Shown here one piece after another: positions 14,270-31,141 of a DNA stretch of 50,387 nt (position 1 is its first letter; each line of letters begins with the position of its first letter). The stretch is from Burkholderiales bacterium (GTDB taxonomy: Bacteria > Pseudomonadota > Gammaproteobacteria > Burkholderiales > Burkholderiaceae_C), in NCBI GenBank assembly GCA_025350145.1, contig JANXYH010000037.1:1-50387 (forward strand), written 5' to 3'. Under the pieces are notes generated by a model. It saw only the letters and a list, made by a program, of their open reading frames with translations. It had not been told where the DNA came from and made no database searches. The position numbers were made by a program, and so were the translations under genes.

Positions 14270-15214
14270 TCAGGTGTAGACCTCGGTGAACGCCGCGTGC
14301 GGCATGCCGGTGTGGAAGAAGATGCCGGTCCAGAGCTGGTCCTCGGTCCAGGTCGTCACCGGCCGGTCGCGCTGGGCCAGATAGCCCATGCCGGCGAAGG
14401 TCTCGTTGCGGTTGCCGCTGGGGTCGAAGAAGTAGATCGTCTCGCCCCGGGTCACGCCGTGGCGGGTCGGGGCGACATCGATCTTGACCTTCTTCTTGCC
14501 CATGATGTCGGCCGCCTTGAGCACGTCGTGCCAGGAGTCGAGGTAGAACGACAGGTGGTGGATGCCCGGCCGCGGGCCGCCGACGAAGGCGATGTCGTGG
14601 GCCTTGTTGCTGATGGTCAAAAAGCTGGCCAGGGTGAACGCGCCTTCCGGGCCGACGACGATGCGCTCGGTCTGGTAGAAGTCGAGCACCTCGATGAAGA
14701 ACTTGGTGTTGTCGGCGACGTGGTTGGTGCCGGTCTCGGGGTTGAACTCGGCCATCAGAAGCACATGGTCCAGCCAATGTGCGCCGGCGCCGTGGACGCT
14801 GTCGGGCCAGGGGTCGGGGTTAGTCGAGCCGACGTCGGTGCCGACGTATTCCTTGAGCGCGAACAAGCGCATGTCGTGGCCGCTGGGCAGGCGGTACTGC
14901 AGCATCCGGCCGGTTGCCGGCAGCGTGCCCTCGGGCAGGATCGTGGTCTTGATGCCATAGGCCTCGATCTTGGCCTGCAGGGTGTCCAGGTCCGCGTCCT
15001 TCTCGACCTTGTAGGCCACGTGGTTCATCCCGGCCGCGTCCGACGGGGTCAGGATCACCGAGTAGCGGTCCCACTCGTCCCAGCACTTCAGGTAGACATT
15101 GCCGGCCTTGTCTTCCATTGTCACGGTCATTCCGATGATATCCCGGTAATGTTTCACCGCCGCTTGTATGTCCATCACCTTGATACTCACGTGCCCAATA
15201 CGCATGACTGCCAT
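14270..15214 (-). CDS. dmpB: Catechol 2,3-dioxygenase (extradiol, type I)
   Basis: A 314-residue two-domain vicinal-oxygen-chelate dioxygenase. It cleaves catechol beside the hydroxyls to 2-hydroxymuconic semialdehyde using Fe(II). The expected iron ligands are His150 (in WLDHVLL), His219 or His220 (in GIHHLSF) and Glu271 (in DPSGNRNE, the extradiol fingerprint region). The length is close to XylE/DmpB (307). The gene is followed by the GlcG/HbpS-like gene and preceded by a XylT-like ferredoxin, which is known to re-reduce the iron of such enzymes after inactivation. Confidence 0.95.
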
Positions 15215-15256
15215 TGCAATTCTCCTACGGGGTTAAAAATGGTTTGAATGGTCCCA

Positions 15257-15595
15257 TTAAGCCGGGCCAACAAACCCTTTGGTGAAAGTTCTAGCCATTT
15301 TCCCTGCCACTTCCAGACGCACGTTTTGCGTCGCACCCACCCGGCAGGCGAGTGTGTATCCTTGGGCCTCTTCGGCGGCGCTCACATGGGCCCGGCTGAT
15401 GGGGCCGAGCTGGTTGATCTTGCCTTCCAGAATCCGGATCCGGCAAACCCCGCAGCCACCGTTGACGCAGCCCGCTGGGATACCCTTGCGGCCGAGCTTG
15501 AGCATGCCCATCAAGAGGCTCTCACCGATCGCGCAGGGGTAACTCTCGCCGGTCTGCGGAATCGTCACCTGAACCTTGGGCCGAAAGTCGTACAT
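15257..15595 (-). CDS. dmpQ: XylT/DmpQ-like [2Fe-2S] ferredoxin
   Basis: A 112-residue plant-type ferredoxin with Cys43, Cys48, Cys51 and Cys84 (CVNGGCGVC, then LACRVG), the spacing of a [2Fe-2S] cluster. It lies between the phenol hydroxylase reductase and catechol 2,3-dioxygenase genes, the position of dmpQ. Family members reactivate catechol 2,3-dioxygenase by reducing oxidised iron, which matters when substituted catechols inactivate the enzyme. Confidence 0.93.
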   Translation of the reverse strand: MYDFRPKVQVTIPQTGESYPCAIGESLLMGMLKLGRKGIPAGCVNGGCGVCRIRILEGKINQLGPISRAHVSAAEEAQGYTLACRVGATQNVRLEVAGKMARTFTKGFVGPA

Positions 15596-15607
15596 GGTCG
15601 GCTGGCG

Positions 15608-16663
15608 TCAAACCCGCTTGAAGAATGCGCTGCGCGGCTTGGCGGCGTCGGCGGCGGTGATGAACTTCTCGGCGTAGATGTCGCGCTCGTACAACCGGCC
15701 CTGCATCAGCGCGGTCAAGCAGGCCTCGATCATCGGCGGCGGGCCGCAGAGGTAGGCCTTGTGGCCGGAGAAATCGCCCCTGAAATGGGCTTTGGCGGCG
15801 TCGTGCACAAAACCGCTGAAACCGCCGAAGCCGGCTGCGCTGTCGGACAAGGCCGGCACATAGTTGAAATTGCGGTGGCGGGCCGCCAACGCCTTGAATT
15901 CGGAGTCGTAATACAACTCGGCGAGGTGGCGCTGGCCATAAACCAGGGTGATGGCTTGTTGCCAGCCGCGTTCGAGCAGGTCGAGGATCATCGCCCGCGG
16001 GCTGGACAAACCGGAGCCACCGGCCATGAACAGCAGCGGCGCATCTGTCGCTGTCCGCACAAAGAATCGGCCATAGGGGCCGGATATCTTCAGCGGGCTG
16101 CCGGCGGTGAGTTTTTGGTGGAGGTAGGCGGTGCCGGCGCCGCCGCTGACGATGCGCACGTTGAGTTCGATCTCGCCAGCCGCGGCGACCTGCGCCGGTG
16201 AATTAGCGATCGAGAACGGGCGGTCGCCTTCGATCCCGGGCAGATGGACCTGGACATATTGCCCGGCCTGGAAATCGAGTGGGCCGTCAAGGCGCAGAAA
16301 TATCGCCTTGATGGTCGGGGTCAGATCCTCGATGCGGCTGACCGTGGTGGCGAAATCCTGGACCGGGATGATGCGGGCATCGGGCTCGTCCTCGATGTCG
16401 GCTTCAATCGTGGCGTCCGACAGCAAGGTGGCGCAGCAGGCCAGGGCCTTGCCCTCTTCGCGCTCAAAGTCCATCAGCGCGAAAGGATTTGCCGCGCCAT
16501 GCGCCACCTCGCCGTCGCAGACCTGTACCTTGCAGGTGCCGCACAGGCCGTGTCCGCAGGCATGCGGGATGAAGATGCCCTGGCGCAGGGCGGCGTCGAG
16601 CAGGGTTTGGCCGTCCTCGACCTCGATCGTCGCGCCCAGGGGTTCGATGGTGAGTTGGGCCAT
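15608..16663 (-). CDS. dmpP: Phenol hydroxylase reductase component P5
   Basis: A 351-residue flavo-iron-sulfur protein. It has an N-terminal [2Fe-2S] domain (Cys36, Cys41, Cys44 in CGHGLCGTCKVQVC, then the cysteine pair 76/77), an FAD-binding domain with RPFSIANSP, and an NAD-binding domain with FMAGGSGLSSPRAMI. It passes electrons from NADH to the diiron hydroxylase. The length is typical of DmpP (353). It follows dmpO by five bases and is the only reductase gene in the operon, so if the second DmpN-like protein accepts electrons it must share this one. Confidence 0.96.
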   Translation of the reverse strand: MAQLTIEPLGATIEVEDGQTLLDAALRQGIFIPHACGHGLCGTCKVQVCDGEVAHGAANPFALMDFEREEGKALACCATLLSDATIEADIEDEPDARIIPVQDFATTVSRIEDLTPTIKAIFLRLDGPLDFQAGQYVQVHLPGIEGDRPFSIANSPAQVAAAGEIELNVRIVSGGAGTAYLHQKLTAGSPLKISGPYGRFFVRTATDAPLLFMAGGSGLSSPRAMILDLLERGWQQAITLVYGQRHLAELYYDSEFKALAARHRNFNYVPALSDSAAGFGGFSGFVHDAAKAHFRGDFSGHKAYLCGPPPMIEACLTALMQGRLYERDIYAEKFITAADAAKPRSAFFKRV

Positions 16664-16668
16664 GCTGC

Positions 16669-17079
16669 TCAGAACCTTTGGTGCCCGTCGGCGCTCAGCG
16701 CCCGGCTGCCTTCCAGCGCCGGGGTGATGAAGCGGATCAGCGACTTGTGGCCCAGGCCATGGTGCGTCAGCGATTTGCCGAAATCGGGCAGGAAACGGCG
16801 CTGGCCCTTGAACCAGTGCACCCGCTGCCAGTCGATTTGCTCGAACTCGGGGTGCTCACCGTACAACTCGGGCAGCACCGCCTCGACGAGCAGACCGAAG
16901 GTCAGGGTCGGCGGCAAGGGCAGGCAGAACGGCGCGGCGTACATCAGGTGGTTTTCCCAGCAGATGTAGATCAGCCGCTTGCCGTAGAACAGCGACTCGT
17001 CGTCCTGCTGGCGCGGTGGGTACGCGCCCAGGCTGCGCAACTGGCTGGCCGGCGCCACGGCGGTCGGGGCGGGGCTCAT
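16669..17079 (-). CDS. dmpO: Phenol hydroxylase component P4 (gamma subunit)
   Basis: A 136-residue small hydroxylase subunit. Conserved stretches are YICWENHLMYAAPF, LPELYGEHPEF, and IDWQRVHWF. The start overlaps the dmpN stop as ATGA, implying coupled translation and equimolar assembly. In the hydroxylase dimer this subunit packs against the alpha subunit. It is about 17 residues longer than DmpO at the N-terminus. A shorter relative, at 24002-24331, shares the motifs YLCWDEHMLFSAP, YGSHPDF and IDWRKVQWF. Confidence 0.94.
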   Translation of the reverse strand: MSPAPTAVAPASQLRSLGAYPPRQQDDESLFYGKRLIYICWENHLMYAAPFCLPLPPTLTFGLLVEAVLPELYGEHPEFEQIDWQRVHWFKGQRRFLPDFGKSLTHHGLGHKSLIRFITPALEGSRALSADGHQRF

Positions 17080-18671
17080 TTGGCCTGCGTCGCCTTGCGC
17101 TGGCTGCGCTTGGCAAAGTTGGCGCGGTCACGGCTGGTGTCGAAGTCGCCGTTGTCTTCGCCGGGATTGATGCCGAGGTAGCGCAACATCTCGCGCACCG
17201 GGCTGTCGCCGGGCGAGGCCGGGTTGACATCCTCGGGGTAGCAATTGCCCTGGTAGATCTGGTGCACCGGCAGCCAGGCCTGGCTGAGTTTCTCGGGCTC
17301 GTCGCCGAAGATTTCCTGGCAGTGGCTGGAGCAGAAATGGTATTGCTGGCCACGCCAGTCGGTCTGGCGAAAGCAGATGCGGGTGGCGTCGCCGGGCTCA
17401 GTGAAGAGCATCGGCACCTGGCAGACCTGGCACAGCATCGGCAGAAACTGGTTGAACCAGCGGCCCTGCGCCGGATCGTCCTTCTCCGCCTCGGTCTGGG
17501 GCGGTTGGTGCTCGGCGTGTCGCTGCCAATGGGCGAAGCGGGCCCGGTAGTGCTGGTCGAAGCTGTCGGGGTACTTGCCGGCCAGCCAGGCCTGCTCGTC
17601 GGCACTGGGCAGCCAGGTGTGGAAGGCCGCCGCGTGGCCGTATTGGTAGAAGGTGGACCAGGCCTGGTGGCTGATGTGGTCCTTGCCCTCGCAGGCGTCG
17701 GCCCAGCCCTTGGGCAAACGGATGCCATAGCGCGCCAGATCGGCAAAGAGGGCGCCGCCGCTGGCCTCGGCGTACATCTCCCAGGCCTCCTTCCAGCTCA
17801 TCACGCGTTTGGGCAGCATGTAGTCCTGCATCATCGCCACCAGGGTCAGCAGGCGGTAGCCACGCCAGAACCATTTGTCGATCCAGCGCTGCACGATGGG
17901 CACGTTGACCGGGTCCTGCTCCAGCATGAACTTGATGCACTCTATGCCCAGGGTCATGTGCCGGGATTCGTCGGACTGTGCGGAGAAGCCAAAGGTGACG
18001 GTGGACAGGTCGCCGTTGTGCGCCGCGCCGCTCATGAAGGGCACGAACAGCAGGTTCGTCAGCACGTATTCGAACGAGAAACTGACCGCCGTCAGGAACT
18101 CGAATGGCCCGGCCGAATAGGCGTCTTCGAAGAAGCTCTTGGGGACCGAGCAGTACCAGAGGTTGTCAAACCAGTGGTTGTTGCTGTGCAGGCCGTTGAA
18201 GTATTTGTTGTAGTGGCTCAGGGCATGGGTTTCGGTCTGGAAGTGGCGCAACTCGTCGACCGCCTGCATCTGCGCCGCGACCCGGGCGCCCGCGCCGCTG
18301 AACTGGCGGCCGACATGGGCAAAGCCGCGGTGGGCGTAGTACTCCAGCGGCGTCACGCCCTGCAGGAACAGCTTGAGCGCGTTGACATAGCGGGCGTCGG
18401 TCACGCCCAAATCGCCATGGTTCTGGGCGAAGGCGTCGATCACGGCGTAGAGCTTGCGGTCCTTCTCGGACTGGTACTTCCAGTAGGCGTCCATGGTCAG
18501 ACGGAACGGGTCTTCCCACTTGTCCCAGTCGTGGATCACGATGCCCTCGAAGCGGTCCATGGGAAACACCTTGTCCATCGGCTGGTAGCTGGTTTCCCAG
18601 TGCAGGCCGCGGGTGTTGGCGGCGTAGCGGTCCTTGAGGCCGAGTTTTTTCTTAACGACGCGTGTGTCCAT
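17076..18671 (-). CDS. dmpN: Phenol hydroxylase large (alpha) subunit P3, catalytic copy
   Basis: A 531-residue diiron monooxygenase alpha subunit that hydroxylates phenol to catechol. All six expected iron ligands are present: Glu110 (TPLEY), Glu140 and His143 (DELRH), Glu201 (FSFEY), Glu235 and His238 (DESRH). The spacing 30/61/34 agrees with the family. A zinc site is formed by Cys414, Cys417, Cys447 and Cys451. The ATG at 18671 lies inside the end of the upstream livF-type gene (20-base overlap), so translation may be coupled to the transporter genes. The order dmpN-O-P is canonical, but dmpKLM lie about 7.3 kb upstream, beyond the transporter and the second N/O pair. Confidence 0.96.
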   Translation of the reverse strand: MDTRVVKKKLGLKDRYAANTRGLHWETSYQPMDKVFPMDRFEGIVIHDWDKWEDPFRLTMDAYWKYQSEKDRKLYAVIDAFAQNHGDLGVTDARYVNALKLFLQGVTPLEYYAHRGFAHVGRQFSGAGARVAAQMQAVDELRHFQTETHALSHYNKYFNGLHSNNHWFDNLWYCSVPKSFFEDAYSAGPFEFLTAVSFSFEYVLTNLLFVPFMSGAAHNGDLSTVTFGFSAQSDESRHMTLGIECIKFMLEQDPVNVPIVQRWIDKWFWRGYRLLTLVAMMQDYMLPKRVMSWKEAWEMYAEASGGALFADLARYGIRLPKGWADACEGKDHISHQAWSTFYQYGHAAAFHTWLPSADEQAWLAGKYPDSFDQHYRARFAHWQRHAEHQPPQTEAEKDDPAQGRWFNQFLPMLCQVCQVPMLFTEPGDATRICFRQTDWRGQQYHFCSSHCQEIFGDEPEKLSQAWLPVHQIYQGNCYPEDVNPASPGDSPVREMLRYLGINPGEDNGDFDTSRDRANFAKRSQRKATQAK

Positions 18672-19431
18672 GGGGAGTCCTAGGGTTGCCCAGGCCGACC
18701 GCCTCGCGGTCATTGACCGGGAAGTAGGCGCGGTGGAGTATGTCCGGGTCGGCGCGCAGCTTGGCCGGGTCGCCGTCGTACGAGACCCGGCCGCGCGACA
18801 TCACCACCGCGTTGTCGGCCAGGGCCAGTGCCAGGTGGGTGAACTGCTCGATCAGCAGCACCCCGATGCCGCTGGCGGCGATGCTGCGGATCACCGGCAC
18901 CAGCCGGGCCACGATCAGCGGCGCCAGGCCGAACGAGAGCTCGTCTATGACCAGGAACTTCGGCCGCACGACCATCGCCTGGGCCAGCGCGACCATCTGC
19001 TGCTGGCCGCCGGAGAGGTCGCCCGCACGCTGCCCCAAGCGGTCCTTGAGTTCGGGGAACAGCGCCAGCGTGCGCTCCAGCGCCGCCGCCAGTTCGCCCC
19101 GGCGCAGGTCGCCGCCGGCCACCGCCAGGTTCTCGCGCACGCTCATGTCGCGCAGCACCTGGTGGCCCTCGGGCACGGTGGCGATGCCGCGGCGGCGGAT
19201 GTCTTCGGTGTCCAGGCCGGCCAGGTCGACGCCGTCCAGCCAGACCTCGCCGAAGGCAGGCGCGATCACCCCGGCGATGCCCATCACGGTGCTGGTCTTG
19301 CCGGCGCCATTGGCGCCCATCAAGGCGGTGACCTTGGCCGCCGGGATGTGCAGCTCGATGGCGTGCACCACCGCCTTGGTGCCGCGCACCATCACCAGGT
19401 TGCTGATCTGCAGGGCGCCGGTGGCCGTCAC
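18652..19431 (-). CDS. livF: Liv-type ABC ATPase (LivF family) embedded in the phenol operon
   Basis: A 259-residue ATPase with Walker A GANGAGKTS, signature LSGGQQQMVALAQA, Walker B FLVIDELSFGLAP and the switch LLIEQFTHLA. Walker B has Glu-Leu where most relatives have Glu-Pro, but the catalytic glutamate is present. The start overlaps the livG-type stop by four bases (ATGA), and its last 20 bases overlap the start of dmpN, a direct physical link between the transporter genes and the hydroxylase genes. It is about 20 residues longer at the C-terminus than usual, probably because the gene was trimmed or fused at this junction. Confidence 0.88.
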   Translation of the reverse strand: MTATGALQISNLVMVRGTKAVVHAIELHIPAAKVTALMGANGAGKTSTVMGIAGVIAPAFGEVWLDGVDLAGLDTEDIRRRGIATVPEGHQVLRDMSVRENLAVAGGDLRRGELAAALERTLALFPELKDRLGQRAGDLSGGQQQMVALAQAMVVRPKFLVIDELSFGLAPLIVARLVPVIRSIAASGIGVLLIEQFTHLALALADNAVVMSRGRVSYDGDPAKLRADPDILHRAYFPVNDREAVGLGNPRTPHGHTRR

Positions 19432-20156
19432 AGCGACTCCGCATGGTCGAAGTCGCCGAGGTAGGCGCGCCGCACCTCGGGCTTGTTCAGCACCGCCTCG
19501 GTCGGCCCCAGCGCCAGCAGCTTGCCGAAGTCCAGCACCATGGTCTCGTTGCAGACCGCCGCGATCAGCGCCACATCGTGGTCGACCAAAAACACCTGCG
19601 CGCCGCAGAAGGTGGGAATGGCCCGGATCACGCGCTGCAAATGGCTGGTCTCGGACTCGGACATGCCGGCACCGGGCTCGTCAAGCATCACCAGCCTGGG
19701 CTTGCCGAGCACGGTCTTGGCGATCTCGGCCAGATGCCGTTCCTCGGTCGAGAGCTTGCTGCCGCGCCGGTCCAGCCGGTGGCCCAGGCCGACGAAGCCG
19801 ATTGCCTGCGTCACCGCGTTGCGCCGCGCCTGCCGGCTGTCGAAGGCGATGTGGTCGGCGGCGGCCTGGACGTTCTCCTGCAGGCTCAGGTCATCGGCGA
19901 TCTGGTCGGTCTGGAAGCTGCGGCGCAAGCCCATGTCGGTGCGCGCGTGCGGCGCCACGCCGGTCACGCGCCGGCCGTCGACGCTGACGCTGCCCTGCAC
20001 CGGCACGACAAACCCAGACAGCACATTGAGCAAGGTGGTCTTGCCCGCGCCGTTGGGGCCGATCAGGCCGACGATGGGCTTGGTCAGTTTGACGCTCAGG
20101 CCGTCGATGGGCTTGACGCCGCCAAACTGCACACTGAGCTCGTGGATGTCAATCAT
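19428..20156 (-). CDS. livG: Liv-type ABC ATPase (LivG family) with atypical signature motif
   Basis: A 242-residue ATPase starting at ATG 20156. Walker A GPNGAGKTT, Walker B LVMLDEPGAGM and the switch FLVDHDVALI are intact. The signature region reads KLSTEERHLAEIAKTV instead of the usual LPYGQQR or LSGGQ form, so the two glycines of the consensus are missing. Some LivG-type proteins vary here, and activity cannot be excluded. The gene overlaps the livF-type gene by four bases. Confidence 0.87.
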   Translation of the reverse strand: MIDIHELSVQFGGVKPIDGLSVKLTKPIVGLIGPNGAGKTTLLNVLSGFVVPVQGSVSVDGRRVTGVAPHARTDMGLRRSFQTDQIADDLSLQENVQAAADHIAFDSRQARRNAVTQAIGFVGLGHRLDRRGSKLSTEERHLAEIAKTVLGKPRLVMLDEPGAGMSESETSHLQRVIRAIPTFCGAQVFLVDHDVALIAAVCNETMVLDFGKLLALGPTEAVLNKPEVRRAYLGDFDHAESL

Positions 20157-20169
20157 GCTCGGGTCCGCA

Positions 20170-21648
20170 TCAACGGTAGGCCGCCTGGGGCTTGGGCCAG
20201 CGCCGGTCGATGCGCTCGCGCAGCGGCAGCACCTGCGGGTACAGCGCCCACTCCAGCACCACCTTGGCGGCGATCGCGCCCCAGACCACGCCCAGCGCCA
20301 GCCAGAACGGCAGCTCGAACACGCCCCAGACGATCCAGCCGACAAACAGGCCGATGAACAGCACGTTGAGGCAGCGCTTGAGCAAGCGGTGGTCGGCCAG
20401 CCAGCCGTGCGCCTCGACCCAGCGCGCCAGCGCCAGCGAGGCCCGGCCTTCCAGCGCCTCGGCGGCGTCCTGCACGCCCTTGCCGAAGAAGCCCAGCAGC
20501 AGCCAGCACACGCCCGGAATCGCCTGGCGAAACAGCAGCGCGATCAGGGCGAGGAAGAACACCCCGGCAAAGCCTGCGGCGCCGCTGGCCGTGCTCAGCG
20601 CCCCGGCCAGGCCGGCGATCAGCAGCCAACTGATGCTGCCCTCGATGATGCGGCTGACCCGCACCAGGCTGTAGAAGTCGGCGAGCTGACCTGCCAGCCC
20701 GGTGCGGCCCTGGATCAGCGACAGCAGCAGGGCAAAGCCGTAGAACGCATTGGCCAGGTTGCCGTCCACGCCATGGTCGTTGAGCAGGGCCGGCAAGGCG
20801 CGCATCAGCAGCGCGCCGAACACCGCACCCATCCAGTGGTAAGCGCCGCCGACGATGGTCAGGGCGTAGAGCAGGATCGATTGGCTGACCGGAAAGCCGG
20901 TGTAGTCGAGCTGGCCGTTCAAGCCCGCCAGCAGGCCGCCGCCCAGACCGGCCAGGCCGCCGCCCAGGGTGAAGGCCCAGGCCTTGTAGCGCAGCACGCT
21001 GACGCCGGCCGCGATGGCCGCAGCCTCGCTCTTGCGGATCAGCGCCCAGGCCCGCCCGGGCATGCTGGCGCGGTGCCATTCGATCAGCGCCATGCCGGCC
21101 GCCAGCCAGACCATGGTGTAGCGGAAATAGGCGCCGTCGCTGCGCGCCAGCCAGGGCCGCTGCACCGCCTTGCGCACGCCGTCAGCGACCCGCCCGGCCC
21201 AGCCGCTGCCGCCGTCGGGAAAGCCAACCACGTTGACCGCGACCTGGAACGCCGAGGCGATCATCAGCGTCAGCAGCGCCAGGTACAGGCCGCGCATGCG
21301 CAAGGCCGGCAGGCCCAGTACCAGCCCGAACAGCCCGGCCACCAGGGCGCCGAACACCAGCCCAAATTCGAACGGCAGGCCCAGCCCGTGCAGCAAACGC
21401 AGGCTGGCCCAGCCGCCCACGCCGGCCAGCGCAAACTGCGCCAGCGAGACCATGCCCAGTTGGCCGTACAGCAGCGCCACCGTGCCGCACAGCAGCACCA
21501 GGCAGGCGGCGCTGGTCATGGTGTTGAGCCAGTACGCCGACAGCAGCCACGGCCCGAGCAGGGCGACCAGGCCGAAGGTGATGAGCATGGGCGCGATCCG
21601 CCGCAGCGGCCTGCGCGGCGGGGTGTCGGGCTTGTCCTTGATCGCCAT
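20170..21648 (-). CDS. livM: Liv-type ABC permease (LivM family) with long C-terminal extension
   Basis: A 492-residue inner-membrane protein starting at ATG 21648. The first 330 or so residues are a LivM permease (YGQLGMVSLAQFALAGVGGWASL, then GGGLAGLGGGLLAGL and the TIVGGAYHWMGAVFGALL region). The remaining 150 to 160 residues are an additional hydrophobic part with two or three further predicted helices (FAGVFFLALIALLF, NVLFIGLFVGWIVWGVF) and a basic tail. Ordinary LivM proteins end soon after the first part. The function of the extension is unknown. Confidence 0.87.
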   Translation of the reverse strand: MAIKDKPDTPPRRPLRRIAPMLITFGLVALLGPWLLSAYWLNTMTSAACLVLLCGTVALLYGQLGMVSLAQFALAGVGGWASLRLLHGLGLPFEFGLVFGALVAGLFGLVLGLPALRMRGLYLALLTLMIASAFQVAVNVVGFPDGGSGWAGRVADGVRKAVQRPWLARSDGAYFRYTMVWLAAGMALIEWHRASMPGRAWALIRKSEAAAIAAGVSVLRYKAWAFTLGGGLAGLGGGLLAGLNGQLDYTGFPVSQSILLYALTIVGGAYHWMGAVFGALLMRALPALLNDHGVDGNLANAFYGFALLLSLIQGRTGLAGQLADFYSLVRVSRIIEGSISWLLIAGLAGALSTASGAAGFAGVFFLALIALLFRQAIPGVCWLLLGFFGKGVQDAAEALEGRASLALARWVEAHGWLADHRLLKRCLNVLFIGLFVGWIVWGVFELPFWLALGVVWGAIAAKVVLEWALYPQVLPLRERIDRRWPKPQAAYR

Positions 21649-21671
21649 GGTGGGTGGACTGGAGCTGCGGC

Positions 21672-22565
21672 CTATTCGTCGTGGCTGTTGTCGCGCGTCA
21701 GGCCAATGCCGCCGCGCTGCTGCCACAACACCGCCAGGATCGCGACCACGAAGGCGGTGGCCGAGCTGTAGCGCTGAACATGCGGCTGGACCGTGGCCAG
21801 CGCCTCGATCACGCCGATCACCAGCCCGCCGGCCACCGTTGCCGGCAGCGAGTTCAAACGCCCGACCAGGGCCGAGGCCATCATCGGGATCACCAGAAAG
21901 GTCAGCACGGTCGGGTTGAGCCGGACCATGTTGCCCAGGAACAGCCCGCTGACCCCGGCCAGCACGCCGGCCAGTGTCCAGGCCCAGGTATCGACCCGCT
22001 TGACGCGCACGCCCACCAGGGCGCTGAGCACCCGGTTGCTTTGCAGCGCGCGCATGCGCAGCCCCAGCGGGGTCTTGGCCAGCAGCCAGACCAGGCCCAG
22101 GGTGGCGGCGCTGGCAAACACCAGGGCCGCGATCCGGGTGTGGCCGATCAGGCGCTGGCCGTTGAAATCAAAGCCGCCACCGTCGGTCGGCAGGACCAGG
22201 CGGCGTGGCGTGTCGCCCCAGTACCACTGGGCAAAACCCATGATCATGAGGGCAAAGCCGAGCGTGGCCATGGCCCGCACAGTGCGGTCCTGGTGGGTCA
22301 GCGAGGGCGCGATGTAGCGGCCGTACGACCAGGACAGCAGGGTCGCGCTGGCGATCCCGGCGGCGATGCCCCAGCCGTCGGCATAGTCCAGGTCCAGCAC
22401 CTGCCAGCAGACCATCGCTGACAGGCCGCCAAGCGCGCCGTAGGCGAAGTTGACCACGCCACTGGCGCGGTACAGCACCACCAGGCCGACGCCCGAGAGT
22501 GCGTAGACCGCGCCCACGCTCAGGCCGGCGATCAACACCGGCAAGCTCAGCAACAGCGCGTCCAT
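21672..22565 (-). CDS. livH: Liv-type ABC permease (LivH family)
   Basis: A 297-residue inner-membrane permease starting at ATG 22565. Diagnostic stretches are IAGLSVGAVYALSGVGLVVLY, ASGVVNFAYGALGGL, and LVGRLNSLPATVAGGLVIGVIEAL. It is the normal length for LivH and lies 35 bases after the receptor gene. It pairs with the LivM-type protein to form the channel of the transporter embedded in the phenol operon. Confidence 0.9.
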   Translation of the reverse strand: MDALLLSLPVLIAGLSVGAVYALSGVGLVVLYRASGVVNFAYGALGGLSAMVCWQVLDLDYADGWGIAAGIASATLLSWSYGRYIAPSLTHQDRTVRAMATLGFALMIMGFAQWYWGDTPRRLVLPTDGGGFDFNGQRLIGHTRIAALVFASAATLGLVWLLAKTPLGLRMRALQSNRVLSALVGVRVKRVDTWAWTLAGVLAGVSGLFLGNMVRLNPTVLTFLVIPMMASALVGRLNSLPATVAGGLVIGVIEALATVQPHVQRYSSATAFVVAILAVLWQQRGGIGLTRDNSHDE

Positions 22566-22600
22566 GGCGTCGGCGGACCCGGCTCTGCGGTGCTGCCCGG

Positions 22601-23857
22601 TCAGTTGACCAGGCCGCCCTTGGCTTCCAGCGCCAGCACGTCGGCCAGCTCGTCGTCCTTGGAGCGGTAGCACTGCGTCACGGTCTTGAAGCCGCCGGCC
22701 ACCAGGTCGGCCGCGCGGCCTTCGTGGTTGGGCTGGTGGCGCTCGCCGGCGCCAAAGTACCAGGGCGCGCAGAGCATGTCGGTGCGGAAGTTCTTGATCC
22801 CGGTGAAGGCCTCGTAGGCCGCCTTGCGGTCGATGTTGCCCTTGACCTTGAGCAGCGCGTCGGTGGCCGCACGCGCAGCCAAGTGGCCGGCCTGCGAGAA
22901 GCTGTCGCGCGGATCCTTCTTGTCGCCGTACTTGTCCATCACCGCTTTCCAGTTCTTCATGTCCGGCGTGTCCGCGTCCATGGGCTGCAGCTCCATGTGG
23001 ATGTAGAGCTTGCCGGCCCAGTACTTGCCCACGGCCTTGGGCATGTCAGCGTGGTAGGCGCTGGTCGGCAGGCCCCACTTCATGCTTTTGCCCAGGTCCT
23101 GCTGCTCGGCGGCGGTCAGGATCGGCAGCATCATGCCGCGCGCCATCCCCAGCACCACGCCCTCGCCCTTGGCGGCCGCGATCTGCAGGGCGATGGCGTT
23201 GCCGTCCAACTGGCCCGGATCGAAGATCACCGTTTTGACCGGGATGCCGGCCTTTTTGCCGTAGGCCTCGGTGCCGCCGCAGATCCACTCGCCAAAGCCC
23301 GGGATGCCGGGGGCCACGCAGGTCAGGCTCTTGAGCTTGTAGGTCTCGGCGATGTGCTGGGCCGCACCGACGGTCGACTGGCGCGGACCGGCGTTGAAGG
23401 TGGCGTAGTTCTTGCCAAAGAAGCAGGCCTTGGGCACGCCCACGCCGCCGATCACGGCCACGCCCTCGGTCTCGTAGAGCTTGTTGTTGACGCCGCACTC
23501 GACGAAGCTGGACGAGCCGACCATGCCGACCACCTTGGTGTCCTTGACCAGCTTGCTGGCCGCCTGGCCGGCGACTTCTGGGTTCCAGGTGTCGTCCTGG
23601 ATGGTGTAGGCCACTGGTCGGCCGTTGATGCCGCCGTTGGCGTTGACGCACTTGAAATAGGCATCGGCGGCACGGGCCGACGACGAAAAGTCCTCCGGCC
23701 CGGTTTTGCCGACGATCGCGCCGATCTGGATTGGCTCGCCGCTGGCTTTCTTGCCGTTGCTCAGGCCGCATTTGTCCTGGGCTTGCGCACCGAACGCCGT
23801 CAAACCCAGCGCCATGGCCGCCGCGCCGCTGATCTTGCCAATCTTCAAATGTCTCAT
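22601..23857 (-). CDS. Liv-type ABC substrate-binding protein embedded in the phenol operon
   Basis: A 418-residue periplasmic receptor. The ATG at 23857 is chosen because GGAGA stands about ten bases upstream and a good Sec leader follows (basic MRHLKIGK, hydrophobic GAAAMALGLTAFG, cleavage after AQA). The mature part is Peripla_BP_6-like (GAIVGKTGPEDFSSS, VVGMVGSSSFVECG). It is unusually rich in cysteine for a receptor, with about eight scattered through both lobes, which suggests disulfides. Its place inside the phenol operon suggests an aromatic or otherwise pathway-related ligand, but this is inference from position only. Confidence 0.88.
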   Translation of the reverse strand: MRHLKIGKISGAAAMALGLTAFGAQAQDKCGLSNGKKASGEPIQIGAIVGKTGPEDFSSSARAADAYFKCVNANGGINGRPVAYTIQDDTWNPEVAGQAASKLVKDTKVVGMVGSSSFVECGVNNKLYETEGVAVIGGVGVPKACFFGKNYATFNAGPRQSTVGAAQHIAETYKLKSLTCVAPGIPGFGEWICGGTEAYGKKAGIPVKTVIFDPGQLDGNAIALQIAAAKGEGVVLGMARGMMLPILTAAEQQDLGKSMKWGLPTSAYHADMPKAVGKYWAGKLYIHMELQPMDADTPDMKNWKAVMDKYGDKKDPRDSFSQAGHLAARAATDALLKVKGNIDRKAAYEAFTGIKNFRTDMLCAPWYFGAGERHQPNHEGRAADLVAGGFKTVTQCYRSKDDELADVLALEAKGGLVN

Positions 23858-23875
23858 GTGGGATGTCTCCGTGGC

Positions 23876-23896
23876 GGCGCGTAGGGTAGACGCGCC
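23876..23896 (-). promoter_or_regulatory. Perfect hairpin in the leader of the embedded transporter genes
   Basis: GGCGCGT and ACGCGCC form a perfect seven-base inverted repeat around a seven-base loop, ending 18 bases before the receptor ATG at 23857. No run of T follows, so it is not a typical terminator. It could be an operator or a leader hairpin. A TTGACT reading on the minus strand (23899-23904) might be a -35 box, but I see no convincing -10 box. The 144-base gap that holds it is the longest within the operon. Confidence 0.4.
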
Positions 23897-24001
23897 AAAG
23901 TCAATGGTGTGAACCGTCGCGGCCCGAGCACGTTGAAAACCGCCGGCAGAGCGGGCCAAACAATCCTGCCAACGGGTAAATCGAATGAAACCATTGCGAT
24001 C

Positions 24002-24331
24002 TCAGCCACAGCTTCCACGCACGCCCTCCAGGCCAGGTGTTCTGAACCTCAGGAGCGCTCCTTCGGGTATGGCATGTTGGGCCAAGGTCAAGTCGGCGCG
24101 GGGGCTGAACATCTGGTCGCCGCAAAACCACTGGACTTTGCGCCAATCGATTCTGCAAAAATCCGGGTGGCTGCCATAGAGCTTGGGCAAGACGGTCGTG
24201 CGCAGATCGCTGAAGGTCGCGTCAACAACCGCCACAGAGGTGCGCAAGGGGGCGCTGAAGAGCATGTGCTCGTCCCAGCAGAGGTACAGCCCGGCAGCGT
24301 TCTCGGGGCGCTTGATGGTGGGCGCCGTCAT
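24002..24331 (-). CDS. Second DmpO-like protein, partner of the DmpN-like pseudo-hydroxylase
   Basis: A 109-residue relative of phenol hydroxylase P4. It keeps the landmark stretches YLCWDEHMLFSAP, LPKLYGSHPDF and IDWRKVQWF, but lacks about 25 N-terminal residues of the other copy and differs strongly elsewhere. The start overlaps the stop of the DmpN-like gene as ATGA, the same overlap seen between the canonical dmpN and dmpO, so the pair was probably duplicated together and kept as a unit. No frameshift or stop interrupts it. Confidence 0.85.
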   Translation of the reverse strand: MTAPTIKRPENAAGLYLCWDEHMLFSAPLRTSVAVVDATFSDLRTTVLPKLYGSHPDFCRIDWRKVQWFCGDQMFSPRADLTLAQHAIPEGALLRFRTPGLEGVRGSCG

Positions 24332-25896
24332 ACCCGTCCCTCGCGCGCGGCGCGACCACCGGCCCAATCGCGGAAGTGGCGGTCGTCGGCGCTGTCGGTG
24401 AATTCTCCGCCATCCACACCCGGCCTGATTTTGGCGGCAGCCAGGGTTGCCGCAAACACGTCAAAACCGAGTTGAGCCGCTTCATAGACTGACGCGCTGC
24501 CAGCCCCGGCCAACACCGCATCGGTCGCGAGCCGGGATTGCCGGTATTTCGCCGGATTGGTCTCGAAGATGTTGCGGCAATGGTCGCTGCAAAAATGCTC
24601 AGGGCGGCCGTCGATGGTCGCCTCGACGGCGCTGACACGGCGCGCTTGGCCGGGCTGGGTGAACCACGTCGGAAAATGGCAGGTGCGGCACAGCAGCGGC
24701 GTCGCCGGGTTCCGCCAGTGCGTTCCGGCAACATGCTGCTCGCGGTAATACTCGAAGCGCGGCCGGTAATACCTGCGAAAGCTCTCGGGATATTCGGCGT
24801 GCAGCCAATCAAGTTCTTCGTCGGCGGGTGCCCAGGTATGAAAGGCGGTGTTCGAGGTGTGGCCGTAGAAGCCGCTGAAGGTCTGGTGGCTGAGGTGTGA
24901 CTTGGCGTCGCAGGCATCGTCCCAGCCGGCCGGCCGGCGCAGGCCAAGATCGGCCAGGTCGGCGAACAGCGCTGCCCCGGCGCCTTCGACGTACTGCGTC
25001 CAGTGGCTCTGCCAGGAGCTGCTGTGCAGGGTCAGCAGGTAGTCCTGGGCCATCGCCACGAAACTCATCAGCCGAAAGCCGCGCCAGAACCACTTGTCGA
25101 TCCAGCCCTGCAATATCGGCAGATTGGCCGGATCCTGCGCGGCGAGGAATTTGAGCAGCGCCAAGCCGAAGGCCATGTGCCGCGTCGCGTCACTTTGGCA
25201 ACTGAGCCCGGCATTGGCGCTGGAGGCGTCGCCGTTGCGCGCCGCGCCGCTCATGAGGCAGACATTGAGGAGATTGCTGAAGAGACATTCAAAACTGAAA
25301 CTAACCGCCACCAGGGTTTCCAGCGGGCCGGCGCTGAACACGTCGTCGGCGAAGGATTTGGCCGGCGCCAGGTACCAGGCATGATCAAACCAGTGGGGCG
25401 CCTGGTCGAGCCCCATGAAATATTTGTTGAAATGGCTGAGCGCGTGTGTTTGGGTTTGAAAATGGCGCAGATTGTCCAGCGACTGGAGCTGGCAGGCGAT
25501 CCGGGCAGCGTCACCCGGCATTTGCCGGCCGAGATGCGCAAAGCTGCGGTGCAGGCTGTATTTGAGCGGGGTGAAGGCCTGCAGAATGATTTTCAGAACA
25601 TTGACATAGCGGGCGTCACCAATGCCTAATTGGCCGTTGTTTTGGGCGAACGCCTCGATCAGTGAATAGAGGCGCCGGTCCTTTTCGTTTTGCAGGCTCC
25701 AGTAATCGCCCAGGGTGGTTTGCAAGGGTGGCCGAAAAGCCTCCCAGGAATGCACCCGCAATCCTTCATCGAAGCGGTACGGAAAAACCCCGGCAAGATT
25801 GCGCTGAACGCTGTCCCATGACAGCCCACTGACCATCGCCGGATCTCGGCGGCTGGCGTGGCCGGTGCGGCTGGTCTGAGCGCGGTGCTCGGTCAT
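24328..25896 (-). CDS. DmpN-like alpha-subunit paralogue lacking three diiron ligands
   Basis: A 522-residue, uninterrupted relative of phenol hydroxylase P3. It aligns with the canonical copy over almost the whole length (for example FAQNNGQLGIGDARYVN, HFNKYF, GWIDKWFWRG). The zinc cysteines are kept (Cys403, Cys406, Cys436, Cys440). Of the six iron ligands only His145, Glu203 and His240 remain. The other three positions are Lys112 (TPLKY), Asn142 (DNLRH) and Ala237 (DATRH). A normal diiron centre therefore cannot form. The open frame and conserved fold argue against simple decay. It may be a structural or regulatory subunit, or replace one alpha subunit in a hybrid dimer; this is inference. 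An alternative start is ATG 25836. Confidence 0.9.
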   Translation of the reverse strand: MTEHRAQTSRTGHASRRDPAMVSGLSWDSVQRNLAGVFPYRFDEGLRVHSWEAFRPPLQTTLGDYWSLQNEKDRRLYSLIEAFAQNNGQLGIGDARYVNVLKIILQAFTPLKYSLHRSFAHLGRQMPGDAARIACQLQSLDNLRHFQTQTHALSHFNKYFMGLDQAPHWFDHAWYLAPAKSFADDVFSAGPLETLVAVSFSFECLFSNLLNVCLMSGAARNGDASSANAGLSCQSDATRHMAFGLALLKFLAAQDPANLPILQGWIDKWFWRGFRLMSFVAMAQDYLLTLHSSSWQSHWTQYVEGAGAALFADLADLGLRRPAGWDDACDAKSHLSHQTFSGFYGHTSNTAFHTWAPADEELDWLHAEYPESFRRYYRPRFEYYREQHVAGTHWRNPATPLLCRTCHFPTWFTQPGQARRVSAVEATIDGRPEHFCSDHCRNIFETNPAKYRQSRLATDAVLAGAGSASVYEAAQLGFDVFAATLAAAKIRPGVDGGEFTDSADDRHFRDWAGGRAAREGRV

Positions 25897-25910
25897 GGCC
25901 TGATGCGAGA

Positions 25911-25954
25911 GGGCAGGGTGCGGCAGGGCAGGGTGCGGCAGGGCAGGCTGCTCA
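25911..25954 (-). repeat. 15-base tandem repeat between dmpM and the second dmpN-like gene
   Basis: Two exact 15-base units (25911-25925 and 25926-25940) and a partial third (25941-25954) fill most of the 55-base space and include the dmpM stop codon. On the coding strand the unit is rich in C and contains CCCTGCC. Like the livF repeat at 4449, it begins or ends in a stop codon region. Confidence 0.85.
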
Positions 25955-26221
25955 GTGGCGCCAGCTCAGTGTGAATTCATCGTCGTCCTCGTCGACGTTC
26001 CCCGAGAGACTGATCAGACACAACTGAATTTGCTGCAGGTCATATGCTCGGCCGGTCTGCTCTTCAATCGTTTCGCGTTTGATCACGAGGCGTCCGGGGG
26101 CGTCGATCTTGACCAATCCGGGGGCATAGACGGCTTTGGCCTGGGGGTTGTCCAGAAGAATCGCATCGACCACCGGGCGGGAATCTTCGTTGGCCTGAAA
26201 GGCAATGAATACATTGGACAT
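25952..26221 (-). CDS. dmpM: Phenol hydroxylase regulatory (effector) protein P2
   Basis: An 89-residue cofactor-free effector protein, the length of DmpM (90). It begins MSNVFIAFQANEDSRPVV, contains NPQAKAVYAPGLVKID and ends in a strongly acidic stretch (NVDEDDDEFTLSW). It binds the alpha subunit and is needed for efficient turnover. In canonical clusters dmpN follows directly; here the ligand-deficient DmpN-like gene follows instead. Confidence 0.95.
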   Translation of the reverse strand: MSNVFIAFQANEDSRPVVDAILLDNPQAKAVYAPGLVKIDAPGRLVIKRETIEEQTGRAYDLQQIQLCLISLSGNVDEDDDEFTLSWRH

Positions 26222-26246
26222 GGTGCTGGTTTAGTTTTGGTGGGGC

Positions 26247-27245
26247 TCAAATGCTCAAGCCGATTTTCTTGCAGCGTGTCTGGAATTGACTGCGGACGCT
26301 GGCCAGGGCGCTGTCGGCGGACGCGCCCAGGGCCATCTGGGCGATGGGCGTCAGGCTGGCAAGGGTGCGCTGGCCCCAGGCGGCGGCCCAGGCGCTGAGC
26401 AGGGCCTTGTTCTCGGCCGACTCGGCGGCGGCCACCTTGACGACGGCGTCGATCCAACGCGCCGACTCGTCGTGCCACTCGGGCATGAAGCTGGTGAGCA
26501 TGGCAATCGCCGTGCCGCCCTGCGGGGTCAGGCAGTCGTCGACACAGTGGCGGTAAATCAGCGGGTAGAGCTGGCCGTCCAGCGCCAGGTTCTGGGCGAC
26601 GAACAACTCGATCGGATCCTTCAGGACGAAGCTGTCCTCGACCTGGTGGCGCAGGCCCTGCCAGCAGGCTTGGTTCAGCCATTCGTTTTTACCGGCCTCT
26701 AGCACCCCGGGCTCGTCCAGGGCCAAGCCAAGACGGGTCAGTTGCTGGGCGACGGCGAGCTGATCCATGGCATGGAAGGTGGCCGCGGCGGTCAGCGCGG
26801 TGCCGTAGCCGTAGGCGGCGACAAAGCAGTTGTTCATGTTGCCGCCCCAGGCGACATGGCGCAGGGGCAGCAGCACCCGGCAGGCGCTGTCGCGCAGCGG
26901 GCCGGCCATGCGGCTGAGCAGGCCTCGGGCCTCGACGAACTGGTAGCTGGCCTCCAGCGCTTCTTGCTGCTTGGCGCGGACGCTGGTCCAACTGGCGTAG
27001 TAGAACTGGCGCGGGTCGCGCAGCACATACCAGTCGGCCAGGCGAATCTGGCTGCGGCTGGCGTCGAACAGCAGGTGCTCGGGATCCCAGACCGGGCGGT
27101 AGTGGAAGTTCTGGGTCGGTTGGGCGCCGAGCGTGGCCTCCTGGTAGCGCGAGGCCGGCACATCGCCGCCGAGGTACTTGGCCACATGGCTGAAGGTGTT
27201 GCGCAAGGGCTTGATTTCGCGGGCTTGCAGGTCGATGCTGGTCAT
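26247..27245 (-). CDS. dmpL: Phenol hydroxylase beta subunit P1
   Basis: A 332-residue beta subunit of the hydroxylase, the usual length. Start at ATG 27245 (MTSIDLQAREIKPLRNTF); a GTG at 27254, directly after the dmpK stop, is possible. Family stretches include YLGGDVPASRYQEATLGAQP, NFHYRPVWDPEH and the helix with QAYGYGTALTAAATFHAMDQL. The beta subunit has the same fold as the alpha subunit but naturally no iron. Confidence 0.94.
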   Translation of the reverse strand: MTSIDLQAREIKPLRNTFSHVAKYLGGDVPASRYQEATLGAQPTQNFHYRPVWDPEHLLFDASRSQIRLADWYVLRDPRQFYYASWTSVRAKQQEALEASYQFVEARGLLSRMAGPLRDSACRVLLPLRHVAWGGNMNNCFVAAYGYGTALTAAATFHAMDQLAVAQQLTRLGLALDEPGVLEAGKNEWLNQACWQGLRHQVEDSFVLKDPIELFVAQNLALDGQLYPLIYRHCVDDCLTPQGGTAIAMLTSFMPEWHDESARWIDAVVKVAAAESAENKALLSAWAAAWGQRTLASLTPIAQMALGASADSALASVRSQFQTRCKKIGLSI

Positions 27246-27254
27246 GGGGCGCAC

Positions 27255-27521
27255 TCACGCAAGGTCGGGTTGAAGTTCGCTGCTGCCGCGCGGGCCGTCG
27301 GGCAAACGGATCACCTGGTTCTGGACACAGAAGGCGTCGAAATCGGCCACGGCCAGTACCAGTTCCTGAACCAGATCGGGCCAGCCGATGGCGAACTCAA
27401 ACGCCACCAGGCCGTTGTCGGCACGCTGCACAACGCGCACATAGCGGCGCGAGAGCGGCAAGTCGGCGGGTTCGGCAAGCATCGTGGCGGGGTCAGGCAG
27501 CGGCGCCGCAATGGTACGCAT
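27255..27521 (-). CDS. dmpK: Phenol hydroxylase assembly protein P0
   Basis: An 88-residue protein, first gene of the operon. It contains RRYVRVVQRADNGLVAFEFAIGWPDLVQELVL, typical of DmpK. The protein is not needed for turnover but helps to insert iron into the hydroxylase. Its ATG at 27521 lacks a good ribosome-binding site, so initiation may be weak or depend on a regulated transcript. Its stop directly abuts the possible GTG start of dmpL. Confidence 0.9.
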   Translation of the reverse strand: MRTIAAPLPDPATMLAEPADLPLSRRYVRVVQRADNGLVAFEFAIGWPDLVQELVLAVADFDAFCVQNQVIRLPDGPRGSSELQPDLA

Positions 27522-27769
27522 GGCAGCGCGCCAGGAAAAGCATAAAGTTGTTGTAATCTCGATAAACTAGGGTAATCACCGATGATGTGCGGAGTCGGCC
27601 GAGCCGCCTTAGCAGCTGCCCAGAGTTAGCTCTAGTCCCATCCACTGCGCAGGTAATGCAATGATGATGAGCGGTGTCAGGTGCAGGCCTGACGGGCAGT
27701 GATCGGTGTTTCCCCGCAATCGATAGACTCGCAATTTTCTCGATAATCTGGCCGAATCAAGCGCTACAG
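27522..27769. promoter_or_regulatory. Divergent control region between the dmp operon and its GntR regulator gene
   Basis: This 248-base space holds three notable signals. The nonamer TCTCGATAA occurs twice in the same orientation, at 27557-27565 (36 bases before dmpK) and 27738-27746 (24 bases before the regulator ATG), and a weaker relative (CGATAGACT) lies at 27721. A perfect inverted repeat GTCAGG-N6-CCTGAC spans 27676-27693. These are candidate operators. I found no sigma-54 type box (TGGCAC-N5-TTGC) on either strand and no convincing sigma-70 box. Confidence 0.5.
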
Positions 27770-28567
27770 ATGGCGAAACGCTCAGCCCTCAGATTGGTCA
27801 GCACCGAGTCCTTGGCCCAGCTCGGCGTCGGCCTGTCTGCGACCGAGCCGGAGCGGGCGGCCTCGCCCTCGACCCTGATCGAGCAAACCTACGCGCGGCT
27901 GCGCGATGACATCGTCGAGGGCCGCCTGGAGCCCGGCGAGAAGTTGCGCGTGGAGCACCTGCGCGAGCACTATGGCGTGGGCGCAGGCACGCTGCGCGAG
28001 GCGATCACGTGGCTGGTCAGCGACGCCCTGGTGGTGGCCGAAGGCCAGCGCGGTTTCCGGGTCGCGCCAATTGCCCTGGCCGATTTGCTCGACCTGACCG
28101 AACTGCGGGTGCACATCGAACTGGAGTCACTGCGCCAATCGATCCGCAAGGGCGATGCGGCCTGGCGCACTGCGCTGCGGGCGGCCTTCGAGGCCGTGTC
28201 TGCGGTCGAGTTGCCCCTGACCGTCGATAACCGCCTGCGCTGGGAGGCGCTGAACATCCGCTTTCACGAGACCTTGATCGCCTCGCATGCCTCGCCCTGG
28301 ACCTTCAAGGTGCTGCGCATGCTCTCGCGCCAAGGCGAGCGCTACCGCCGCTACGCGATCCAGTTGCCGCACAGCGTGCGCGATGTGCATGCCGAGCACT
28401 CGGCCATCTTCGAGGCGGCGTTGGCCGGCCAGGAGGCACGCGCGGCGCTGGCGCTGGAGTTGCACATCCGCACCACGCCAGATGTGTTGACGCGGGCCGA
28501 GCGCGACGGCGTGGCCTGGCGCAAACTGCGCATCACTCAGCCGGCGCGGGGCGGGGCGGCGAGCTGA
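27770..28567 (+). CDS. GntR/FadR-family regulator, probable repressor of the phenol operon
   Basis: A 265-residue regulator starting at ATG 27770. After about 30 residues comes a GntR winged helix-turn-helix (LIEQTYARLRDDIVEGRLEPGEKLRVEHL, then GVGAGTLREAITWLVSDALV). The C-terminal half is an FCD domain, with FHETLIASH and DVHAEHSAIFEAAL carrying the histidines that usually bind a metal. The AphS protein of Comamonas is a GntR repressor divergent from its phenol hydroxylase genes; position and family agree with that role. Its 3' end overlaps the end of the convergent pnuC by 31 bases. Confidence 0.88.
   Translation: MAKRSALRLVSTESLAQLGVGLSATEPERAASPSTLIEQTYARLRDDIVEGRLEPGEKLRVEHLREHYGVGAGTLREAITWLVSDALVVAEGQRGFRVAPIALADLLDLTELRVHIELESLRQSIRKGDAAWRTALRAAFEAVSAVELPLTVDNRLRWEALNIRFHETLIASHASPWTFKVLRMLSRQGERYRRYAIQLPHSVRDVHAEHSAIFEAALAGQEARAALALELHIRTTPDVLTRAERDGVAWRKLRITQPARGGAAS

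Positions 28568-29497: not shown

Positions 29498-31141
<1,644 letters not shown>

Follow-up and report, generated by a model that had tools for sequence, protein, structure and literature searches.

Why does a phenol hydroxylase operon carry, beside a complete catalytic α subunit, a second full-length copy in which three of the four iron-binding carboxylates are replaced? The locus lies in a stretch of 50,387 nucleotides, referred to here as the window, which is contig C117 of a draft genome of 4.56 Mb (98% complete, contamination estimate 0.63%). In the following, N denotes the canonical DmpN subunit, N' denotes the ligand-deficient copy, and the other subunits are likewise called by their final letters.

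Gene order and genomic context

The genome has a single phenol hydroxylase operon, on the minus strand, with the order K L M N' O' transporter N O P. The features are as follows.

27674-28567, GntR-family regulator, divergent from the operon
27255..27521, minus strand, DmpK (PF06099, 2e-21)
26247..27245, minus strand, DmpL β subunit, single copy in the genome (PF02332, 3e-62)
25952..26221, minus strand, DmpM regulatory protein, one copy in the operon (PF02406, 6e-28)
25910..25951, minus strand, 15-bp tandem repeat of 2.8 copies in the M-N' gap
24328..25896, minus strand, N', ligand-deficient DmpN paralogue of 522 residues (PF02332, 2e-51)
24002..24331, minus strand, O', second DmpO (γ) of 109 residues (PF04663, 1.1e-16)
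18652..23857, minus strand, LIV-type ABC transporter between O' and N (PF13458 for the substrate-binding protein)
17076..18671, minus strand, canonical DmpN (N), with ligands E110, E140, H143, E201, E235, and H238
16669..17079, minus strand, canonical DmpO (O) (PF04663, 1e-28)
15608..16663, minus strand, DmpP reductase, named from its position after O; matches to the AntC, BenC, and MmoC models are all below cut-off
15257-15595, minus strand, ferredoxin-like gene
14270-15214, minus strand, catechol 2,3-dioxygenase (C23O), followed by further genes

K, L, M, and P are present in one copy each in the operon, and only N and O are doubled; in the whole genome, three genes belong to PF02332, namely L, N', and N. 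N' lies between M and O', which is where a DmpN-type α subunit should be in a KLMNOP-type order, and the start codon of O' overlaps the stop codon of N' (ATGA).

The transporter comprises five genes, encoding a substrate-binding protein, two permeases, and two ATPases. The permease and LivG labels are ones that we presume from the translations, and the last gene matches the UrtE and LivF models below their cut-offs. Relatives of the binding protein at E values up to 1e-60 were found in 2 of 99 other genomes (50% and 43% identity) and in none of 20 other genomes of the genus; the nearest one found, at 50% identity, is in G032, a member of another genus of the family. As a guess, the transporter may import an aromatic compound.

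The operon is heterogeneous in GC3. K (0.76), M (0.69), N' (0.76), O' (0.78), and Q (0.74) form a low group of 0.69-0.78, P is at 0.83 and L at 0.89, the transporter, N, and O are at 0.90-0.94, and C23O is at 0.92. This split within positions 14270-27521 hints at a mixed origin. The low GC3 of N' was considered as a sign of decay and set aside because K, M, O', and Q are equally low.

The genome's sole enolase (29498-31104, minus strand), an enzyme that is normally essential, is split over two reading frames (model positions 1-104 and 102-424). The frameshift belongs either to the assembly or to the genome itself, so the draft may hold indel errors.

Loss of the iron ligands in N'

N' runs from ATG to TGA over 522 codons with zero internal stops and is 47% identical to N. 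At the six diiron positions, N has Glu110, Glu140, His143, Glu201, Glu235, and His238 (E-E-H-E-E-H), whereas N' has Lys112, Asn142, His145, Glu203, Ala237, and His240 (K-N-H-E-A-H). The first-pass annotation had proposed these coordinates, the intact frame, and these ligand letters; all of them are borne out, and the gene lies on the minus strand. The codons concerned, together with the zinc-type cysteines discussed below, are the following.

25561..25563, minus strand, AAA, Lys112 at the ligand position of Glu110
25471..25473, minus strand, AAT, Asn142 at the ligand position of Glu140
25288..25290, minus strand, GAA, Glu203, the sole kept carboxylate (Glu201 in N)
25186..25188, minus strand, GCG, Ala237 at the ligand position of Glu235
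24577..24690, minus strand, zinc-type cysteines C403, C406, C436, and C440, all four present

The Asn142 codon is at least two base changes away from any Glu codon. The pattern EEHEEH is found in 99 of 100 aligned rows (N of the window and 98/98 rows from relatives) and KNHEAH in N' alone, a contrast that makes chance an inadequate explanation of the N' ligand pattern. Nine further loci at class level (L113-L121) also read EEHEEH. Judged by homology, N' is a member of the DmpN family; catalytic diiron α subunits are defined by the E-E-H-E-E-H ligands, and the K-N-H-E-A-H residues of N' put it outside the predicted catalytic class.

An assembly or sequencing artefact is hardly credible as the source of this gene. 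The split enolase, about 4 kb away, would speak for one, but an open frame of 522 codons whose identity to any relative does not exceed 51% is impossible to obtain from base errors. Moreover, a single contig carries M, N', and O', and the contamination estimate of the draft is low.

The structural core of N'

N' scores 175 bits against PF02332 (cut-off 24.4), and its best solved relative is the phenol hydroxylase subunit phN (3u52/2inn, 469 bits). AlphaFold2 models computed from the same 25 rows gave pLDDT values of 73.5 (N') and 76.5 (N) and pTM values of 0.78 and 0.81, respectively. The top PDB match to the N' model is 2inp_A (TM 0.83), and the best solved matches are phenol hydroxylase α chains. 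The zinc cysteines noted in the first-pass annotation are indeed present, though the YHS model matches N' with 23.7 bits, below its cut-off of 30.3 (N, 33.5), and confidence drops clearly in the predicted zinc-type domain of N'.

To describe the core, we called a position near-invariant when it is conserved across 98% or more of the 99 canonical rows (N of the window plus 98 from relatives), in an alignment that leaves out duplicates and matches aligned over fewer than 380 residues (e.g., L024, itself EEHEEH). N' retains 95 of the 132 such positions and N of the window 131. The losses are densest in helices E-F (15/38, N residues 188-251) and few in helices B-C (3/19, N residues 81-160), where two of the three are iron ligands, and in the region of the DKWFWR helix (2/16, N residues 252-286); the names B-C and E-F are our own labels. 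Specific targeting of the iron ligands was considered as well, but the loss of 3/4 carboxylates against 34/128 other near-invariant sites is not significant (p=0.07).

Compared with the DmpN/PHH α subunits of known structure (PDB 2INN, 2INP, and 3U52), N' thus shares the fold, the length, the zinc-type cysteines, the place after M and before O, and most of the near-invariant residues. It differs in the replaced iron carboxylates, in relaxed selection, and in being a second copy beside a complete one.

Around the former iron site, N' keeps both iron histidines, Glu201, Asn206, Gln232, and Asp234 (N numbering), and Thr205 is conservatively replaced by Ser. By our own mapping from the spacing to the ligands, Thr205, Asn206, and Gln232 of N presumably correspond to the Thr201, Asn202, and Gln228 triad of toluene 4-monooxygenase. 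In PMC4200526, this triad is described as important for catalysis and for complexes with ferredoxin and effector. Where N has Tyr202, next to the ligand Glu201, N' has Cys204. The same helices have also changed at several conserved Phe, Met, and Pro residues. The changed sites in helices E-F include sites near the gate and, by our own mapping, on the M-docking face.

These residues bear on whether N' might catalyse redox chemistry at a modified site or at one devoid of metal. The precedent would be R2e, the R2 subunit of class Ie ribonucleotide reductase, in which three metal-binding glutamates are replaced, giving VPK or QSK (PMC11846895). Like R2e, N' has a dimetal-carboxylate fold that has exchanged three glutamates, one of them for lysine, and the retained histidines, Asn206, Gln232, and Asp234 would suit a redox role. 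A subunit of this kind would be expected to pair a lysine at a ligand position with a modifiable tyrosine close by; N' has Lys112, and Cys204 takes the place of Tyr202. However, R2e belongs to another family, carries other letters at the substituted positions, and is active through a DOPA residue, of which N' shows no sign, and the Tyr-to-Cys change and the altered Phe, Met, and Pro residues also count against this idea, which we find very doubtful.

Alternatively, N' could serve a purpose unrelated to the hydroxylase, such as sensing phenol by binding it or partnering the transporter, whose genes directly follow O' in the operon. This is improbable in our view, since the conserved body of N' is that of a hydroxylase subunit and O' would be left unexplained. 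We know of no sensor or transporter-partner role for this fold.

Distribution and origin of N' and O'

Searches with N' gave matches in 17 of 149 relatives, 5 of 21 genomes of the genus, and 13 of 369 genomes of the class, each count including this genome. A further set of 80 loci came from a search in which 80 of 99 relatives, the best-scoring ones, were retained. No orthologue of N' was found: apart from three class matches, every other match whose letters were read has EEHEEH at the ligand positions and resembles canonical N more closely. In close relatives, the operon reads GntR / K L M N O P Q C23O, with a single N and a single O. None of 88 related loci, some of them short and some from the same genome, has N', O', and a transporter between M and N; at one (L062), two operons lie face to face. 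Among plasmids, 64 records matched N', all with less than 60% identity (maximum 49.1% among the 40 listed).

Matches to DmpO (PF04663) were found in 20 of 399 genomes of the order and 11 of 398 genomes of the phylum, both counts including this genome and some genomes being shared. In these two sets, this genome is the only one with two DmpO genes within 10 kb on one contig, while G551 and G1498 each have two on different contigs. The PF02332 family scan covered 399 genomes, of which 72 are among the matches listed; weaker copies may lie beyond that list. Within these sets, the search for the same ligand-deficient pair in other genomes, as proposed in the first-pass annotation, came back with this genome only.

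The 100-row tree attaches N' and N alike at the base of a clade that comprises 32 rows from Comamonadaceae and Burkholderiaceae; their end branches measure 3.65 and 0.52, respectively. A smaller free tree places N' beside two rows of the same genus, away from N. A tree with N' and N as sisters is not rejected (AU p 0.665), and its likelihood is higher by 4.1 than that of the free tree. Given such long branches, the placement of N' is unsure. O' and O group together in their tree, but the support is weak and the long branches call for caution.

The simplest history would be a lineage-specific duplication of N-O, giving N' and O', together with the arrival of the transporter genes. As for which copy holds the old place, N' and O' share the low GC3 of K, M, and Q, and N and O share the high GC3 of the transporter, but the values of L and C23O blur this cue.

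Translation signals and selection on N'

The Shine-Dalgarno sequence before N is strong in 15/15 relatives (median dG -7.7, range -9.1 to -6.4). That of N' is weak (-2.5, or -3.0 at Met21), the 15-bp tandem repeat filling the gap where relatives carry the ribosome-binding site. Weak sites also precede L (-2.3 vs -6.6) and M (+1.2 vs -5.9) of the window, compared with the median of the 15 relatives, so that a weak Shine-Dalgarno sequence does not single out N'. The sites of N and O in the window are likewise weaker than those of relatives, and O' has a good one (-8.1).

A stationary codon model was fitted to 518 codons in 19 rows (17 relatives, N, and N'), on a tree constrained to join N' and N as sisters; columns gapped in N, in N', or in more than three rows of the alignment with the 17 relatives were left out. 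In this model, ω was 0.048 for the background, 0.082 for N, and 0.168 for N', i.e., 3.5 times the background. For N', ω=1 was worse by a 2dlnL of 56.5 and ω=background by 82.8; the difference between N and the background (3.5) was not significant. A non-stationary model let the mutational equilibrium vary freely along the N' branch and kept the other branches fixed; here, ω of N' was 0.45 (profile roughly 0.3-0.65) and ω=1 was worse by 15.2. Since this model also gave high values for N of the window (0.35) and L047 (0.33), with 0.07 for two other tips, the absolute value for N' is rough.

Neutral decay was simulated from three relatives down to the same identity as N'. The simulations gave means of 5.8-15.1 stops, against zero observed, and only at an equilibrium of 80% GC were some of 300 runs free of stops. 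The values for the three codon positions (p1/p2/p3) were about.26-.29/.27-.31/.20-.30 under neutrality and.38-.43/.33-.34/.48-.54 as observed, meaning that simulated neutral decay produces too few third-position changes. A line of evidence that does not depend on models comes from sites that are invariant within the clade, counted from N residue 21 onward. N' keeps 96/130 of those that are deeply conserved further out, 46/74 of the middle group, and 38/81 of the less conserved ones (<80%); the contrast between the first and last groups is significant (p=1e-4). When the comparison with all other clade-invariant sites was shuffled within residue types, 4 of 5000 shuffles reached the observed count.

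Together, codon models, simulations, and site retention indicate that N' was translated, and under constraint, over a large part of its past. A neutral pseudogene is rejected by both codon models, by the zero stops and frameshifts, and by the codon-position pattern. The constraint is real but relaxed, and looser than that on the active subunit. The suggestion of the first-pass annotation that three ligand losses without a stop or frameshift point to selection for a non-catalytic role is thus supported in part: neutral decay would hardly give such a gene, and deeply conserved sites are preferentially kept, while the role itself is a proposal. It had also named what recent decay would look like: of its two marks, glutamates in the homologues of relatives are seen, and neutral substitution rates are not (ω<1).

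A slower form of loss fares better. In this scenario, N' is a slowly dying duplicate without present function, its frame being open through past constraint, selection against toxic misfolding, or translational coupling to O'. Two-phase histories, in which constraint is followed by neutrality, gave lnL values of -13760.1 to -13763.0, just 1.3-4.2 log units worse than the single ω (-13758.8). Against this stands the late neutral phase itself, for which the joint chance that the frame stays free of stops while three or more Glu are lost peaks at 0.0006-0.0025. This value and the overall ω<1 argue for purifying selection after the ligand losses, although the searches gave no orthologue by which to date them; the absence of stops and frameshifts, the dependence of retention on deep conservation, and the codon-position pattern also speak for a constrained gene. 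The raised ω, the occurrence in one genome, the glutamates of relatives, and the repeat in place of a good Shine-Dalgarno sequence nonetheless make slow loss a serious rival, to which we grant a substantial minority share of the probability.

Rates of the partner genes

Distances were compared over 13-20 close relatives per gene, genes that were missing, broken, or below 60% length being dropped. The median distance from the window to relatives, against the median pair among relatives, was 0.65/0.25 for N and 1.45/0.43 for O, corresponding to accelerations of 2.6 and 3.4 times. For the single-copy partners, accelerations were 1.3-1.5 times (K, 1.40/0.94; L, 0.85/0.62; M, 0.65/0.51; P, 0.63/0.42; Q, 0.66/0.52). 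N and O have therefore changed faster than L, M, P, and Q, which fits what pairwise specialization, of N with O and of N' with O', around a shared L would give. It also accords with soluble methane monooxygenase, whose two protomers become unlike when a single MMOB is bound, with γ tuning the asymmetry (PMC13045389). However, C23O, which is not doubled, is accelerated 2.2 times (0.69/0.32), and this weakens the inference from partner rates.

Proposed role of N'

The reading we favor, with close to an even chance of being correct, is that N' is a non-catalytic α' subunit that has its own γ' subunit, O', shares the β subunit L, and serves as a dead protomer or as a partner in assembly or regulation. 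After the loss of three of the four carboxylates of the diiron site, the Lys112/Glu203 pair may stand in for the charge of the metals. N' would most likely bind the single L, with O' as its γ', and N'-L-O' would then join the (αβγ)2 hydroxylase as a silent protomer or aid its assembly or regulation, the active site being supplied by N-O. Such a dimer would have one working site, and any benefit may be regulatory. Points that count against this proposal are the occurrence in one genome, a constraint weaker than on active copies, the changes in helices E-F, and the weak Shine-Dalgarno sequence.

The β subunit L is a long-known iron-free form of the diiron hydroxylase fold. The comparison with it made in the first-pass annotation is apt: L belongs to the same PF02332 fold family without iron ligands, reading A-Q-V-D-S-W at the six ligand columns, and L of 7/12 relatives shares Asn with N' at the Glu140 column, where L of the window has Gln; N and L are so distant that the alignment of these columns is less sure. 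In contrast to L, N' is of the α type, aligns with N over its length, and keeps both His, Glu203, and the C-terminal zinc-type domain.

A precedent beside that of methane monooxygenase is the prozyme of Trypanosoma brucei, a dead paralogue that activates AdoMetDC (PMC5201418). There, too, a catalytically dead paralogue is kept beside the active copy, but the enzyme is eukaryotic and unrelated, and its heterodimer has been shown, whereas that of N' is our proposal. In the open-licence literature searched, no comparable iron-free α subunit was found; N' would be a case of a dead paralogue among soluble diiron monooxygenases.

A more specific arrangement, which we consider rather unlikely, is an (N L O)(N' L O') hetero-hexamer with a built-in asymmetry, one half of it being a dedicated, permanently iron-free protomer. 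For methane monooxygenase, PMC13045389 describes a proposed asymmetric catalytic cycle. If true, the asymmetric hetero-hexamer would be a genetic fixation of the one-active-half state seen by cryo-EM in methane monooxygenase. An operon with a complete and an iron-free α subunit, each with its own γ subunit, would allow a direct test of whether these dimeric hydroxylases require activity in both halves.
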